Positions 22,863 to 29,979 of a stretch of 38,342 bases of DNA are shown here, one piece after another. Under the pieces are notes generated by a model. That model did no database searches and was not told the origin of the DNA. It saw only the letters and a list, made by a program, of their open reading frames with translations. Positions within the stretch are counted from its first letter, which is position 1; every line of letters starts with the position of its first letter. The position numbers and the translations under genes were made by a program. Origin of the DNA: Candidatus Gottesmanbacteria bacterium (GTDB lineage: Bacteria > Patescibacteriota > Microgenomatia > UBA10105 > UBA927); the NCBI GenBank assembly GCA_016214885.1, contig JACRMP010000021.1, positions 1 to 38,342 on the forward strand, written 5' to 3'.

Positions 22863-24683
22863 CTACATCCGCTCTACAGTGGTAATACCCAATAAATGGA
22901 GGCCGTTTTTCAAAACCTGTGCGGTGGCTGCCGTGAGGGCCACGCGGTGTGGAGCCGAAGCAATAGGATGCTTCTGGTAAAACATGTTAAATAACGCAGC
23001 AAGCCTGAATAAATAGGTGCAAAGTATGTTGGGACTGAGGCTATGTGCGGCATCCGCTACTATTTCGGGATAAAAATGGATAAGCCTCGTGAGAAGACGC
23101 TCTTCAGTGTTTAACGCCGTGTCACCCATAGAAGGCAGCACGTTTCCCGCTTTCTTCAACACACTCTTACACCGGGCGTAGCTATACAGAAGATACGGAC
23201 CCGAATCGCCATCAAACGAAACGGATTCTTTAATATCAAAAGCTATTTCCTGATCCGTGCCGACGCGCAAAAATGCATACTTCACTGCGGCAACCGCTCC
23301 CTTTTCCGCAATTTCTTCTTGATCTTCTTTTGTATAGTCTGAATTATTTTGTTTTAGTATCTCATAGATTGATTTCTTTGCCTCATCCAAAAGCCATTCG
23401 CCTAACACGACCTGTCCGGTACGGCTACTCATTTTGCCGTGTTTAAGCTTCACCCATCCATATGTTTTATGAAACTGACGGTTTGCTGTTTCCGGAAACA
23501 GAAGATCCATGGCCTTAAAAATAACGCGGGTATAGCTATACTGTTCAGGCCCCAATACGTGCAGGATCAAATCGGGGTGATATTCACTGTGCTGAAGCGG
23601 AGCTAGCCCCATATCTTTTCCCTCATAGGTCGCGTTTCCCTCACTCGTTATAAAAACCCGATTGTGGAGACCATACTTCTCTCCCGGAAAGATTATTGCT
23701 CCGTCGCTCTTCTCAAAAATGCCGTTTTTCAGACCGACTAACACATTTTCCTTCCCTGATTCATACGTTTCACTTTCAAAATAAAACCGGTCATAGTGGG
23801 TATTAACCCTTTTATAGATCCCCTCGAAATACTCAAGGCTCCAGGCGCGTGTCTCCTGGTAGAGAGGATAAATAGAGGGATCTTTGGCATAAATCTGTTT
23901 ATTTATCTCTCCCGTGGCCTTCTTGACCGTCTCATCAGACTCGTATTTTGTACTTCCGGCGGCATATGCTTTGCCCAAAAATTCAACCCGTATATGGATA
24001 TCTTTCCCCCGGACGGATGCTGGATCGCACTCGGTGAGATTAGTCATCGCCCAGAGGCATTTGGCAATATGCATACCGACGTCTCCCTGATAATTGGCAC
24101 GCACCACCTCATGTCCGCTTGCTTCCAGAAGTCTTACCAAACTCTCCCCGGTCGTGATATTGCGTAAATGACCGATATGGAAGGCTTTATGGGTGTTGGG
24201 ATGGGCAAATTCGACCATGATTTTGTGCGCATTGCCGTCCGCTTCCCCGTGAAGATCAATGGATACCAAGGTCTGGCTTGCTCCAAAGCTCCCGCCTTCT
24301 TTTAGCACTTGCGACACTCGATTGCTTAAGCTGGCTTCGGTCAAAAAGATGTTGATGAACCCGGGAGAAGCAACCTCCACCTTACTAATATCCTGTAATA
24401 CCAAAGAATGATTTGATAACCATGTATACTTCTGATCCTTTTTATGGATATTCTGATCTACTGACTCATGGCTAACTAATGAAATCGCCTCTTCGAGGAT
24501 AGATTTAACCTGTAGTGCGATATCCATCGGAGGCTTTTTGAGTTGCTTTGCCAACTTCATGGCGGTATTGGTGGTATAGTCGCCATGCCCTGCGTCTTCG
24601 GAAATTACCACATCTACAGCAACACCTGTTACCCCCATTTCTGAGAGAATACTGATGAATAACTGCTGTAAACGTTGCTTCAT
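22863..24683 (-). CDS. argS: Arginyl-tRNA synthetase
   Basis: ArgRS charges tRNA-Arg with arginine using ATP. This 606-residue class I enzyme has the N-terminal Add1-type domain (ISEDAGHGDYTTNTAMKLAKQLKKPP, residues ~28-53), the HIGH motif in FAHPNTHKAFHIGHLRN, and RANYQGDVGMHIAKC after it. A KMSKS-like loop reads KLKHGKMSSRTGQVV, and an anticodon-binding helical end follows (FRLAALFNMFYQKHPI, ALTAATAQVLKNGLHLLGI). It is the last gene of the T-box-led arginine unit, 37 nt behind the second transcarbamylase, so arginine supply and charging are regulated together. Confidence 0.96.
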   Translation of the reverse strand: MKQRLQQLFISILSEMGVTGVAVDVVISEDAGHGDYTTNTAMKLAKQLKKPPMDIALQVKSILEEAISLVSHESVDQNIHKKDQKYTWLSNHSLVLQDISKVEVASPGFINIFLTEASLSNRVSQVLKEGGSFGASQTLVSIDLHGEADGNAHKIMVEFAHPNTHKAFHIGHLRNITTGESLVRLLEASGHEVVRANYQGDVGMHIAKCLWAMTNLTECDPASVRGKDIHIRVEFLGKAYAAGSTKYESDETVKKATGEINKQIYAKDPSIYPLYQETRAWSLEYFEGIYKRVNTHYDRFYFESETYESGKENVLVGLKNGIFEKSDGAIIFPGEKYGLHNRVFITSEGNATYEGKDMGLAPLQHSEYHPDLILHVLGPEQYSYTRVIFKAMDLLFPETANRQFHKTYGWVKLKHGKMSSRTGQVVLGEWLLDEAKKSIYEILKQNNSDYTKEDQEEIAEKGAVAAVKYAFLRVGTDQEIAFDIKESVSFDGDSGPYLLYSYARCKSVLKKAGNVLPSMGDTALNTEERLLTRLIHFYPEIVADAAHSLSPNILCTYLFRLAALFNMFYQKHPIASAPHRVALTAATAQVLKNGLHLLGITTVERM

Positions 24684-24720: not shown

Positions 24721-25668
24721 TTATGACTTTTTCCCTTTCATAAGAAATACCAGGAGTCCCTTTTGTGCATGGAGGCGATTTTCGGCCTGATCGTAGACCA
24801 CAGACTGCTTACTGTCAAACACTTCTTTGGTCACTTCGTTGCCTAAATACGCCGGCATATCATGCATAAAAAGCGCATCCGGTTTGGCTAGACTCATAAG
24901 TTTTTCATTCACCTGGTACCTACGGAACGCCTTAAGACGCTTGGCTTTCTCCTTTTCGGCACCCATACTGACCCATGTATCGGTATACACCACATCCGCC
25001 CCCTTCACTGCAGATTCCGGATTTTGTGTTTCTGTCACCGATCCGCCGTACTTAACGGCCAGACTCCGGGCTTTCGCCGAGACCGCGGCACTCATTGCAT
25101 ACCCTTTGGGACTAGCGACCACAATATGCATCCCCAATAAACCACAGACCAACGCTAATGAATGGGTTACATTGTTGTTCCCGTCGCCGACAAATGCCAC
25201 GCGGATCCGATGAAGGCTCCGTTTATACTCCACCATCGTCATAATATCGGCAAGTATCTGACACGGATGCTCCAGATCAGACAAACCGTTGATGACCGGC
25301 ACCTTTGAATAACGGGCGAGCTCAGCTACTGTATCGTGAGCAAACACCCTTGCCATGATTGCACTCCCCATACTCGAAAGCACCTTAGCGGCATGCTCCA
25401 CCGGCTCGCGCACCCCCAAACCAATATGTTCAGGCCCGAAGTACAGCGCATGACCACCTAATTGGAACATACCGATATCAAACGATGCATGAGTCCTGAG
25501 ACTGGGCTTTTCATAAATCATGATAAGCGTTTTTCCTTTGAGGAGTGGTTTATTCTTCCCCGTCTTACGAAGCCTTTTTTTTAGTTTTTCCGCAATGCCC
25601 AGAATATCCAGGATATCCCTGCGGGTTAAATCGGTTATCGATAACAAATGTTTTATTTTCATATGCAT
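24721..25668 (-). CDS. Ornithine carbamoyltransferase-like protein with altered active-site motifs
   Basis: This 315-residue protein has the standard transcarbamylase layout. The carbamoyl-phosphate loop reads EKPSLRTHASFD instead of STRTR. GLSDLEHPCQILADIM is intact, VAFVGDGNNNVTHSL opens the second domain, and DTWVSMGAE is the usual ornithine loop. The late motif normally HCLPAHRGEEVT reads HDMPAYLGNEVT, so the substrate-binding Cys and the Arg are both replaced. It begins 6 nt after the first transcarbamylase gene; another ATG lies 6 nt further in. It could be the real ornithine enzyme with local changes, a regulatory partner, or a carbamoyltransferase for another amine. Confidence 0.85.
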   Translation of the reverse strand: MHMKIKHLLSITDLTRRDILDILGIAEKLKKRLRKTGKNKPLLKGKTLIMIYEKPSLRTHASFDIGMFQLGGHALYFGPEHIGLGVREPVEHAAKVLSSMGSAIMARVFAHDTVAELARYSKVPVINGLSDLEHPCQILADIMTMVEYKRSLHRIRVAFVGDGNNNVTHSLALVCGLLGMHIVVASPKGYAMSAAVSAKARSLAVKYGGSVTETQNPESAVKGADVVYTDTWVSMGAEKEKAKRLKAFRRYQVNEKLMSLAKPDALFMHDMPAYLGNEVTKEVFDSKQSVVYDQAENRLHAQKGLLVFLMKGKKS

Positions 25669-25674
25669 AACACG

Positions 25675-26661
25675 CTATTTTTTGGCCCCCATAGTCAACG
25701 CAAGTATCGCCTTCTGGACATGCATCCGGTTTTCCGCCTGATCATATACCACCGACTGCTTGCCATCAATAACCGCGTCAGCCACCTCGATCCCGCGGTC
25801 TGCCGGCAAGCAATGCATATATATCGCGTCTTTCCTGGCAAGCTGCATCTTTTTTTCATCGCAAATCCAGCTTTTGTACTTTGCGGCGATTCTGGTGCAC
25901 ACGCTCGGATCACTCGTGGTCACAAGCGGCCCCCAGCTTTTGGGATAGACGACATCCGCATCCCGGAACGCATCCTCCATACTATGCGTAATATGCACTG
26001 ATCCACCTGTTTTTTCCGCATTTTCCCTGGCTGTTTTCATAATACCGGGCATGAGCATAAACTCCTTGGGGTATGCAAGCGTGATGTCAGCGCCGAATTT
26101 GGTCAGAAGCAACAAAAACGACTGCGGCACCGATATGGGCTTGGTGTAACTGCTCGCAAACGCCCAGGACATGACTATTTTCTTCTTTTTGACGGTTTTT
26201 TTCTTTTCCAAAATGGTCATAAGGTCAGCCATAGCCTGGAACGGATGATAAATATCACACTGCATATTAAACACCGGGGCAGTGGAATACTTTGCTACCT
26301 CGCGGATATAAGAATTTCCCTCTCCCCAGTCACAATGGCGGATTGCAATACCATGCCCGTATGACGAAAGGATTTTGCCTATTTCCTTCGGCGTATCACC
26401 ATGCGCAATTTGGAGCTTATCGGGGGTAAGATCGTGTGAATTGCCTCCTAACTGATCCATGGCCGCCTCAAAGCTCGTTCTCGTCCGTGTTGAGCTAAAA
26501 AAGAATAGTAAATAAAGTGTTTGATGCAGAAGATAAGGCGTCGGCTGTTTCAAACGGAATTTCTTTTTGAGCTGCACCGCCAAATCCAGTGCCACCTTAA
26601 GCTCTGCGGTCGACCACTCCTGTTCAGCTATAAAATCCCTGCCGATTAATTTTTTGTACAT
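25675..26661 (-). CDS. Carbamoyltransferase of the YgeW/AOTCase-like (knotted) type
   Basis: This 328-residue enzyme has an intact carbamoyl-phosphate loop (FFSSTRTRTSFEAAMDQLGG), an 80s-type loop (IAHGDTPKEIGKILSSYG), CDIYHPFQAMADLM and HCLPADRGIEV. The segment SWAFASSYTKPISVPQS followed later by DVVYPKSWGPL resembles knotted transcarbamylases (N-acetyl/N-succinylornithine transcarbamylase and YgeW) more than standard ArgF. Substrate could be ornithine, an acyl-ornithine or another amine. The start at 26661 has AGGAG 6 nt upstream. The 74-nt gap after argG carries a GGGAGG/CCTCCC hairpin. It is followed at once by the second transcarbamylase. Confidence 0.85.
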   Translation of the reverse strand: MYKKLIGRDFIAEQEWSTAELKVALDLAVQLKKKFRLKQPTPYLLHQTLYLLFFFSSTRTRTSFEAAMDQLGGNSHDLTPDKLQIAHGDTPKEIGKILSSYGHGIAIRHCDWGEGNSYIREVAKYSTAPVFNMQCDIYHPFQAMADLMTILEKKKTVKKKKIVMSWAFASSYTKPISVPQSFLLLLTKFGADITLAYPKEFMLMPGIMKTARENAEKTGGSVHITHSMEDAFRDADVVYPKSWGPLVTTSDPSVCTRIAAKYKSWICDEKKMQLARKDAIYMHCLPADRGIEVADAVIDGKQSVVYDQAENRMHVQKAILALTMGAKK

Positions 26662-26735
26662 ACAGGCTCCTTTCATTTCATAAAGTGCCGGTTTGGGAGG
26701 CCTCGAGAACCTCCCTTTCCGACATAATACCACGT

Positions 26736-27986
26736 CTACATGTTTCCCCGCTGATGTGCTAATTTCATCTGCAGAGAATACACTTCGATAAACCCTGCGC
26801 TCGCATTGACGTTGTAAGAATACCCGCCGCTTGTCGTAAACGATGCGTGATGCATAGCAAACGGACTGGTCATAGCAACGACAGTAGCAGACCCTTTATA
26901 TAACTTAACCGTCACCATTCCGGTCACTTTTTCGTTTACCGTATCGTTAAAGCTGTTTATCGCATCCATAACAGGATCAAACCATTTCGCACCATAACAA
27001 AGATATGCCCATTTAATGTCCATCTGGTTTTTAAGCTCGTTAAGCTCCCTCGTCGAGACATACTGTTCCAGTGCTTTGTGGGCAGTGATGATAACATGCC
27101 CTGCCGGAAGCTCGTAGACACCCCTGTCTTTAAGACCTACGAGACGATCCTCCACCAAATGCACCACCCCCACACCATGCGCACCTGCGATGGTATTGAG
27201 TGTCGCAATAAGCTTGGCAAGCTGCATTGTTTTCCCGTTTAATGCAACAGGCAGACCCTTTTTGTAGGCTATCGTTATGATCTCTTCCTGATCCGGCGCG
27301 TTTTTAGCCAGCGTATAGGTAGTCAAAAACTTATCGATCTTCGGGATATACTGGGGATCCTCAATTTCTCCCCCTTCCCAGGTCATGCCCCACATGTTGT
27401 CATCGACGCTATACGGAAAATCCAGGCTGGCAGGGACAGGAATGCCGTATTTTTTGGCATATACTATCTCTTCATTCCTATCCATATTCCACTCGCGGAC
27501 AGGAGCAATAATTTTTATGTCGGGATTGAGCGTCAGCATGTAGCCCTCAAACCGGACCTGGTCGTTGCCTTTACCGGTACATCCATGCGCCACCGCATCT
27601 GCACCTACCTTCTTGGCCACTTCAATGGCTTTAGCAGCCGTGATTGCGCGGCCTATTGGCGTTGATAAATGATATTCCCCCTGATAACTCGCGTTTGCTT
27701 TAACGCCCAATGCAATATATTTTTCCGCGAACTCATCTTTGACATCCAGGACTATCGCCTTCTTAGCTCCGAACTTCAGCGCTTTTTTCCGGATGGCGGC
27801 AAGATCATCACCCTGCTGACCCAAGTCCATGGTAAGGGTGACCACCTCAGCGTGATACTCATCGATAATCCATTTGAGCATGACGCTGGTGTCTAAGCCG
27901 CCGCTATAGAGCAGGAGTACTTTTTTTACTTCACCTTTTTTTGCCTCATACGAGGCAACTTTTTGGTATGTTGTCTTGTGCTTCAT
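26736..27986 (-). CDS. argG: Argininosuccinate synthase
   Basis: ArgG joins citrulline and aspartate using ATP. This 416-residue protein has the PP-loop VLLLYSGGLDTSVMLKW near residue 25, AHGCTGKGNDQVRFE for substrate binding, and DDNMWGMTWEGGEIEDP characteristic of the family. The start is the ATG at 27986: AGGAGGTG inside the end of argH lies 8 nt before it, and an upstream in-frame GTG overlaps that SD. It begins 1 nt after the argH stop, so translation is tightly coupled. Confidence 0.97.
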   Translation of the reverse strand: MKHKTTYQKVASYEAKKGEVKKVLLLYSGGLDTSVMLKWIIDEYHAEVVTLTMDLGQQGDDLAAIRKKALKFGAKKAIVLDVKDEFAEKYIALGVKANASYQGEYHLSTPIGRAITAAKAIEVAKKVGADAVAHGCTGKGNDQVRFEGYMLTLNPDIKIIAPVREWNMDRNEEIVYAKKYGIPVPASLDFPYSVDDNMWGMTWEGGEIEDPQYIPKIDKFLTTYTLAKNAPDQEEIITIAYKKGLPVALNGKTMQLAKLIATLNTIAGAHGVGVVHLVEDRLVGLKDRGVYELPAGHVIITAHKALEQYVSTRELNELKNQMDIKWAYLCYGAKWFDPVMDAINSFNDTVNEKVTGMVTVKLYKGSATVVAMTSPFAMHHASFTTSGGYSYNVNASAGFIEVYSLQMKLAHQRGNM

Positions 27987-27987
27987 A

Positions 27988-29508
27988 TTATTCACCTCCT
28001 TTCATCACTGATTTCATTGCGTTTTGTAATAGCGCTTCGGAGGCTTTCCCGGATTTCTTTTTCGAATCTAGCCACATCTTATGCACGTTAAGCTGTTTGT
28101 TAAGCTTTTTGAGACTCATCTTGATACTGTTTTTTCCCGGCCCGCCGTATGACGCAATAAGCTTTGTGGTGTGGTGGGGGTCTTGCCAAAGCTCAACCTG
28201 CATGGGAGTCACCGAACAGGACAAACCCATTTCACCCAGTGCAGCAATGAGGCTCTGGTGAGTTACTTTATCCTGACCTGCACTTGCTTTTACCGCTTTC
28301 TCGACCACCACCTTGGCCACCCGCATGGGCAACTGAAATGCAACCGCCAACTGCTCCATGAGTACGGTAGCGCTCACAAACCCTTTGGTACTCCAGGACT
28401 CCATATGACTCTTATGCAGAATCATTGTCCGGATAACTCCTGTAATGACGACAGGCGCCGGTAAACACTCGCGCAGAACATCCGTCACCATATACTTTGC
28501 CCACTGGGAATCACGGTTATACCCGATAAAATTCCCCTTCCCCATACCGATAAGCCCCATAAGCTGTCCGTGGACAAACGCAGCCTTGCCCTTGACCACC
28601 TCCAGAGGATCGGGATTTTTCTTCTGGGGCATAACGGAGCTTCCGGTGCTATAGCCATCGGCTAGTGTTAGCATGCCGAACTCCGGCGTAGCAAATAAAA
28701 TAAGCGTCTCAGCAATAAGCGACAGATGGTTCATCATGATCGCGGTGGCGTACACAACATCTGACTCCGCCTCCCCGCGGTTTGTTATGGCGTCCAGCGA
28801 ATTATGATCCGGCCCATCAAACCCTAATAAGGAAGCAGTCATTTTTCTGTCGATAGGATAACTGGTTCCATATGAAACCACGCTCCCCAACGGGCAATGA
28901 TTGTGAAGCGTGTGCCATGCAGTAAACCTGGCAATATCGCGGAGCAACATGGCGGCAAATCCCGCGAGTGTGTGTCCCAGGGTCGTTACCATAGCGTGCT
29001 GATGATGGGTAAATCCGGGCATAAGCACTCCCTTAGTCTCTTCTGCCAATTCCAGAAGTGATTGAATAAGTGTGATACAGTTGTTTACCTGCATAAGCAC
29101 CCCATCACGCAGGTAAAGCTTCATATCGGTAACAACCTGATCATTGCGGCTCCGCGCGGTGTGCAGTTTGCCAGCCACCTCTATCCCAAGCGTATCGGTG
29201 AGCCATGATTCAATGTTGGAATGTACATCTTCGCGAGTAGGATCAAGCGTCCACTTTCCTTTGGCTGCAAGCTGATCCAGCATTATGAGTCCGCTCAACA
29301 GTTTTGCACCATCGGAAAGCGGAATAATACCGGTCTTCGCAAGCATCACCGTGTGCGCTTTGTTAAGCCGTATGTCATACGGAACAAGAGCTGCATCGGC
29401 AGGCGGAACAACAGCCACATCGCGCCCGGCAGTAAACTCAATTACGGCATTATCCGGCGTCACCCCAAAGGCTGAACCCCACAGTTTATTTGTTTGTTGT
29501 GTTTTCAT
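27988..29508 (-). CDS. argH: Argininosuccinate lyase
   Basis: ArgH splits argininosuccinate into arginine and fumarate. This 506-residue protein begins MKTQQTNKLWGSAFG. It contains KLHTARSRNDQVVTDM, FTHHQHAMVTTLGHTL with a catalytic His, and the signature GSSVMPQKKNPDPLEVVKG. It is somewhat longer than the usual ~460 residues, with a basic tail after position ~450. The start at 29508 is chosen by family alignment; the frame stays open upstream to 29631 through hairpin-rich leader sequence, which is unlikely to be coding. It is the first gene of the unit behind the T-box. Confidence 0.96.
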   Translation of the reverse strand: MKTQQTNKLWGSAFGVTPDNAVIEFTAGRDVAVVPPADAALVPYDIRLNKAHTVMLAKTGIIPLSDGAKLLSGLIMLDQLAAKGKWTLDPTREDVHSNIESWLTDTLGIEVAGKLHTARSRNDQVVTDMKLYLRDGVLMQVNNCITLIQSLLELAEETKGVLMPGFTHHQHAMVTTLGHTLAGFAAMLLRDIARFTAWHTLHNHCPLGSVVSYGTSYPIDRKMTASLLGFDGPDHNSLDAITNRGEAESDVVYATAIMMNHLSLIAETLILFATPEFGMLTLADGYSTGSSVMPQKKNPDPLEVVKGKAAFVHGQLMGLIGMGKGNFIGYNRDSQWAKYMVTDVLRECLPAPVVITGVIRTMILHKSHMESWSTKGFVSATVLMEQLAVAFQLPMRVAKVVVEKAVKASAGQDKVTHQSLIAALGEMGLSCSVTPMQVELWQDPHHTTKLIASYGGPGKNSIKMSLKKLNKQLNVHKMWLDSKKKSGKASEALLQNAMKSVMKGGE

Positions 29509-29704
29509 AAAATATATACATTCAATCTTTATAGTCACATGGTTTCGTATATAAGCGGCTGCGCTTCGCGCGAAACCATAATTTGTTGTAAAACTCGCGG
29601 ATATGCATCCGCTCGTTACATAGATAACCATGGTACGTCGCTTCGCTCCTCACCATTGTTGGCAGTAAGCTCACAAATAGGTATTTGTTCGCTAACTGAC
29701 CAAC
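29509..29704 (-). other. Hairpin-rich leader between T-box terminator and argH
   Basis: This ~195-nt stretch has a perfect 9-bp inverted repeat, ATGGTTTCG at 29539-29547 and CGAAACCAT at 29571-29579, enclosing a GC-rich inner part. It also has a 6-bp one, GCGGAT at 29597-29602 and ATCCGC at 29607-29612. No SD precedes argH. It may be a second control layer, a processing site or a small repeat element. Confidence 0.45.
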
Positions 29705-29756
29705 AAAAAATCCCCTTGGATCTCTCCCGGTAAAGACCGAGAGAAGTCCAAGGGGA
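29705..29756 (-). terminator. T-box intrinsic terminator of the arginine unit
   Basis: Read on the minus strand, TCCCCTTGGA pairs perfectly with TCCAAGGGGA; a second stem CTCTC-GGT/ACC-GAGAG lies inside with a small bulge, and a run of six T follows. The CCCC of its 5' arm is the same segment needed by the antiterminator, so the two structures exclude each other. Confidence 0.9.
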
Positions 29757-29950
29757 CGTTAGTTAGCGTGGTGCCACCCCAGGTTTAGAAAAGGTTGTTT
29801 TATTAAAAACAAAAAATCCCCGTATAGCCTTGACGGAAGATCACTTTTCCCTCAACTTAAAAGTTTCTTACTTGTTGGCCTTGCAGCCGCCTTTCTTCAG
29901 AAACGGGCTCCGGTGCTCGACACCATCATCGCCTATTCAATTGTTACAAC
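29705..29950 (-). ncRNA. T-box riboswitch leader controlling the arginine genes
   Basis: The T-box bulge UGGCACC lies at 29770-29776 (minus strand), flanked by GGGG on one side and ACG on the other. GGGG can pair with CCCC and ACG with CGU downstream, giving the classical antiterminator with its 7-nt bulge. The intrinsic terminator follows directly. Upstream, a 5' domain has GGUG/CACC and UUUC/GAAA hairpins as stem I candidates. I could not assign the specifier codon; context (argH, argG, transcarbamylases, argS) predicts tRNA-Arg. Uncharged tRNA would favour the antiterminator and expression. A GGGGATTTTTTGTT string occurs both near 29815 and at the terminator end. Confidence 0.9.
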
Positions 29951-29979
29951 ACTTTACTACAGGACTTTATTCTTGTCAA
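29951..29979 (-). promoter_or_regulatory. Promoter of the T-box arginine unit
   Basis: TTGACA (29979-29974) and TAAAGT (29956-29951) on the minus strand are spaced by exactly 17 nt. This is one of the strongest promoters visible in the window. Its -35 lies just past the comEC nuclease-gene stop at 29990. Confidence 0.8.

Follow-up and report, generated by a model that had tools for sequence, protein, structure and literature searches.

The window (the whole stretch of 38,342 nt that was analysed) carries five arginine genes on the minus strand, preceded by a leader between 29979 and 29705. The features are given below in the direction of transcription, each with its support.

29951–29979, minus strand: promoter, TTGACA-17-TAAAGT (consensus scan; hexamers and spacing shared by relatives' Arg leaders)
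29906–29933, minus strand: ultrashort Stem I, GGC-GAUGA-UGGUG-UCGAG-CACC-GGA-GCC, with K-turn-like GAUGA/GGA (folding; compensated changes in relatives)
29917–29919, minus strand: specifier CGA (Arg), then G, in the UCGAG apical loop (folding; table of Arg leaders)
29863–29904, minus strand: Stem II with S-turn-like GAA / AGUA (RF00230 alignment; consensus fold with changes on both sides)
29787–29851, minus strand: outer helix of Stem III, GGGAAAAG / CUUUUCU, around the Arg-specific module (read from the sequences)
29811–29836, minus strand: Arg-specific module, CCGU-CAAGGC-UAU-ACGG hairpin and U-tract (covariation; matches of model R1)
29752–29780, minus strand: antiterminator, GGGG-UGGCACC-ACG...CGU-CCCC (sequence, RF00230 alignment, folding)
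29705–29757, minus strand: intrinsic terminator, with GUCCCC common to the antiterminator (folding)
27988–29631, minus strand: argH (TIGR00838, 350 bits; relatives; homology from near 29510, start codon tentative)
26736–27995, minus strand: argG (TIGR00032, 445 bits)
25675–26733, minus strand: second transcarbamylase besides argF (OTCase, N-acetyl-OTCase and YgeW models, about 249, 243 and 228 bits)
24721–25668, minus strand: argF, ornithine carbamoyltransferase (TIGR00658, 393 bits)
22863–24683, minus strand: argS (TIGR00456, 352 bits)

The gene order argH-argG-transcarbamylase-transcarbamylase-argS, proposed in the initial annotation, stands by family models, and the latter of the two transcarbamylases is argF. 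For the other, none of the OTCase, N-acetylornithine-type and YgeW models reaches its own cut-off, and by sequence it appears to fall between the OTCase, N-acetyl-OTCase and YgeW types. Arg leaders elsewhere in the class sit before argH, argG or argF. A palindromic repeat (core AATnCnTATTYGYGAGYTTA) is present at 29655–29703 and 29590–29609, and also at C25:54296 and C9:58158; the genome contains seven copies, against none in a reversed control, and two of these are directly behind T-box terminators (argH and aspS).

The host genome is 1.12 Mb and 98% complete, and uL30 and bL9 were not found in it (controls were positive). By the account of Brown et al. (2015), the Candidate Phyla Radiation is said to be marked by loss of uL30, and the Parcubacteria group by loss of bL9. 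The size at this completeness and the two absences support, without proving, the earlier guess of a Patescibacterium, and the host is probably Patescibacteria-like. Searching genome contigs for relatives of ArgH gave distant ones only, with identities of 42% at most.

A covariance search of 451 bases with RF00230 gave a match at 29749–29938 on the minus strand (41.0 bits, E 8.4e-8), and the leader was matched likewise in a search of the whole genome (E 4.9e-8). With the UGGC bulge, the antiterminator and the terminator, this upholds the original claim of a T-box at 29979–29705; a covariance match exists, and the specifier is a codon for arginine. The check with RF00230 proposed at the outset gives a low E value, but a score under the Rfam gathering score of 93 bits; a default Rfam scan of the leader is therefore empty, and the leader is invisible to standard annotation. 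At E ≤ 0.001, RF00230 matched 5 of 14 control genomes, with no match in E. coli, Caulobacter, Synechococcus, Bacteroides, Thermotoga or four archaea, and given this silence the match of the leader is not due to chance. At E ≤ 10 the model does match genomes such as archaea, so single weak matches are not to be trusted alone. On folding, the complete leader is more stable than 200 of 200 shuffles (z −3.8).

The consensus-like promoter noted previously is confirmed (TTGACA-17-TAAAGT at 29979–29951), and the Arg leaders of relatives have an identical −35/−10 pair at the equivalent position. The promoter leaves space for a Stem I of 28 nt and no more, so the short 5′ domain remarked upon in the initial annotation is real. 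This Stem I has a short helix (GGUG/CACC) around the five-base apical loop UCGAG. Folding, which had been suggested for finding the specifier, places it at 29919–29917 in this loop, where CGA can pair with the UCG anticodon of a host tRNA-Arg; the codon and the downstream arg genes both bear out the proposed arginine specificity. In relatives, all four apical pairs are altered on both sides (GGUG/CACC versus CCAU/AUGG), and UCGAG is invariant. Across seven leaders (host and relatives), 100% of the cells of the apical helix are paired and its covariation exceeds that of 500 of 500 shuffles, but this rests on few independent events because five of these seven short stems hardly differ in sequence. 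An Arg codon followed by G occurs in all 19 tabulated Arg leaders. In Arg leaders further removed within the class, Stem I is longer and usually carries the codon in a side loop, as CGA-G or, in two cases, as AGA-G. Arg specificity occurs with long, intermediate and ultrashort Stem I inside one bacterial class.

Five host tRNA-Arg genes (UCG, UCU, CCU, GCG and CCG) were detected by ARAGORN on the host tRNA loci. Only tRNA-Arg(UCG) has G73, the other four having A73. Since CGA pairs with UCG, and UGGC with GCCA (G73), both contacts pick out tRNA-Arg(UCG). The same tRNA also has G73 in G002, G004, G005, G001, G016, G022, G013 and G012, and in relatives with a UGGC bulge it has G73 wherever it was seen. 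As G73 is common in tRNA-Arg(UCG) of this group, the discriminator match lends support but is no separate proof.

The antiterminator is as initially described: on the minus strand, GGGG (29780–29777) is followed by UGGCACC (29776–29770, with the UGGC bulge at 29776–29773) and ACG, and is closed by CGUCCCC (29758–29752). The terminator is likewise borne out, at 29757–29705, as a GC-rich hairpin of 21 pairs (about −35 kcal/mol) followed by U6; it was identified by folding, the automatic terminator scan having missed the 21-pair stem, and relatives also have it. CCCC can pair either with GGGG in the antiterminator or, within GUCCCC, in the terminator, and the two are mutually exclusive. Forcing the antiterminator costs about 18 kcal/mol compared with the free fold, as would be usual for a switch whose antiterminator has to be captured by tRNA while transcription proceeds. 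Against the two-state scheme, the full leader when folded freely favours long-range pairing between the regions of Stem I and the antiterminator, so the scheme depends on co-transcriptional folding.

The sequence elements, their covariation, the fit of both tRNA contacts to one host gene, and the terminator make it highly probable that the leader works as a T-box riboswitch that terminates transcription and is specific for tRNA-Arg(UCG). RNA polymerase would make Stems I to III, and the apical-loop CGA of the 28-nt Stem I would pair with the UCG anticodon, a contact that the S-turn of Stem II may assist in place of the missing elbow-binding (IDTM) domain. With uncharged tRNA, the 3′ end GCCA would pair with the UGGC bulge, the GGGG/CCCC antiterminator would hold, and read-through would allow co-transcription of argH-argG-transcarbamylase-argF-argS. 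With charged tRNA, CCCC would enter the terminator and transcription would end at 29705.

The low Rfam score and a Stem I of merely 28 nt could also indicate a decayed or inactive T-box, in which the terminator is constitutive and the short Stem I a remnant. This is very improbable, as compensated changes keep the Stem I helix around an invariant loop, as Stem II, the inner Stem III hairpin, the bulge and the terminator are all conserved, and as codon and discriminator match tRNA-Arg(UCG). The five-base loop UCGAG permits three frames, so that the specifier might instead be UCG (Ser) or GAG (Glu), but the downstream genes are for arginine, and where distant Arg leaders place the codon in a side loop, it is CGA-G or AGA-G; of the alternatives this one seems the most remote.

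Action on translation, as in most class III T-boxes of Actinobacteria, with the 3′ hairpin being a sequestrator, would agree with the form of Stem I, which fits class III (PMC10482949). According to a review, the elbow motif is generally required in transcriptional T-boxes (PMC7583486), and the missing elbow-binding domain therefore counts against a transcriptional reading. However, the hairpin is GC-rich, with 21 pairs and U6, lies about 190 nt upstream of the start of ArgH homology and has no ribosome-binding site, and relatives share the same terminator, leaving translational control very little chance of being correct.

Stem III of the proposed riboswitch has an outer helix that remains complementary in relatives despite different letters, and encloses the Arg-specific module. 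An invariant GUCAAGGC (29834–29827) lies in an internal loop of the module hairpin, and the U-tract follows the hairpin; the inner helix has 100% of cells paired, and its covariation exceeds all shuffles. A model of the module (R1) found matches in 21 of 374 genomes of the class. Each match read sits in a T-box with an Arg specifier, and none of these was outside Arg T-boxes. In G006 the module carries GUCAAGGA, and in G013 an Arg T-box is present without the module, which is therefore not indispensable. The IIA/B pseudoknot sequence of sister T-boxes (ACGGG..CCCGU) was not seen by eye in Arg leaders, which have the outer helix, the GUCAAGGC hairpin and the U-tract in its place; this counts against the proposed riboswitch. 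That GUCAAGGC might pair with the acceptor stem of the tRNA was considered and rejected, as such pairing is not kept in relatives (by eye), and so was a triple helix of the U-tract with Stem III, since the A-tract is missing in relatives. The simplest guess for the module is a pause signal ahead of the antiterminator. That it represents a second sensor or programmed pause, such as an aptamer for free arginine that has a weak terminator of its own, is an unlikely proposal, the second sensor being the boldest reading; if it were true, the leader would read tRNA-Arg charging plus arginine.

At E ≤ 1e-4 there are six T-boxes in the host genome; a seventh, with a weak match (E 0.05), precedes a trpB-like gene. 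Besides the arginine leader, T-boxes of this genome have codons that fit the genes behind them: GAC for aspS, GUC for valS, AUC for ileS and, in the weak T-box, a loop reading UGG before the trpB-like gene. T-box matches were found in 43 of 59 related genomes and, in a sample of the phylum, in 94 of 287 genomes, just nine of them over the Rfam cut-off. Leaders of many aaRS genes in related genomes have the same ultrashort layout. A set of 53 leaders from the host and relatives was compiled in which the amino acid was defined by the gene (family models on representatives, similarity for the remaining leaders) and the hairpin was located by K-turn-like and GAGC-like flanks. The cognate codon was in the apical loop of 39, versus 13.9 ± 3.0 when the labels were shuffled (0 of 20000 shuffles), and the remaining misses mostly look like misplaced hairpins; a cruder first locator, since replaced, gave 33 of 56. 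A terminator was present behind the bulge in 72 of 86 T-boxes, versus 48 of 860 shuffles, and in 31 of the 39 T-boxes of the ultrashort list.

Ten of the 107 T-boxes examined have a tRNA gene behind them. In several (L061, L063, L067, L068, L072, L076; tRNA-Tyr), T-box and terminator are followed by a tRNA gene of the specifier's amino acid; in L183 a Phe T-box and terminator precede tRNA-Phe and then pheS, and in L302 and L303 Arg T-boxes and terminator precede a tRNA-Arg cluster, UCU-GCG-UCG. No report of tRNA genes controlled by their own sensor was found in the literature searched. In the host, the tRNA gene behind a long Tyr-type (UAC) T-box (L001, G000:C2, 1948–2036) has a changed anticodon arm reading GUU and a long variable arm, adjoins a repeated segment, and may be degenerate or repurposed. 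In some long class I leaders (L061, L063, L066, L067, L068, L076), Stem III resembles a complete intrinsic terminator (AACCGACCUCUGGUCGGUUUUUUU or similar) before the antiterminator. The leaders of aspS read AAC (Asn) in some genomes (L203, L205, L192) and GAC (Asp) in others (L002, L197, L077), a pattern that would fit control of a non-discriminating AspRS by way of tRNA-Asn. Tandem glycine T-boxes occur before glyA in G005 (L188) and before an unassigned ORF in G028 (L078).

Class III T-boxes are defined by a short Stem I, an apical specifier and a required Stem II, and classes III and IV mostly regulate translation (PMC10482949). The arginine leader resembles class III (Nocardia farcinica ileS; PMC10482949) in its short Stem I without IDTM, penta-/hexanucleotide apical specifier loop and S-turn Stem II, but differs in having arginine instead of isoleucine, a terminator instead of a sequestrator, no recognisable IIA/B pseudoknot (by eye), and a Patescibacteria-like host. 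The intermediate Stem I of class IV (Actinomyces odontolyticus ileS; PMC10482949) is shared by Arg leaders from other genera of this bacterial class, where a side loop holds CGA-G, whereas Stem I of the present leader has no upper helix above the specifier. A K-turn base, S-turn, UGGN bulge and antiterminator/terminator switch are held in common with class I (Bacillus subtilis tyrS) and RF00230, but upper Stem I and IDTM are missing, and the score is 41 bits against a cut-off of 93. By predicted mechanism and by features the leader is a T-box, in a new combination. The TBDB database (PMC7778990) treats a short Stem I as translational and searched for the short form in Actinobacteria; it also re-applied the short-Stem-I model to class I matches whose Stem I is truncated, and may therefore already contain transcriptional forms of this truncated sort. 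No open paper joining T-boxes with Patescibacteria was found, most subscription journals being outside the reach of the search.

In reviews, an ultrashort Stem I has so far been described as a feature of translational T-boxes (PMC7583486, PMC10482949); here it is paired with terminators, and for many amino acids. Bacteria with very small genomes and Arg T-boxes in long, intermediate and ultrashort form allow a direct test of whether the elbow contact is needed. With T-box matches in about a third of 287 genomes sampled from the phylum, and nearly all below the cut-off, annotation overlooks most of this layer of amino-acid regulation.
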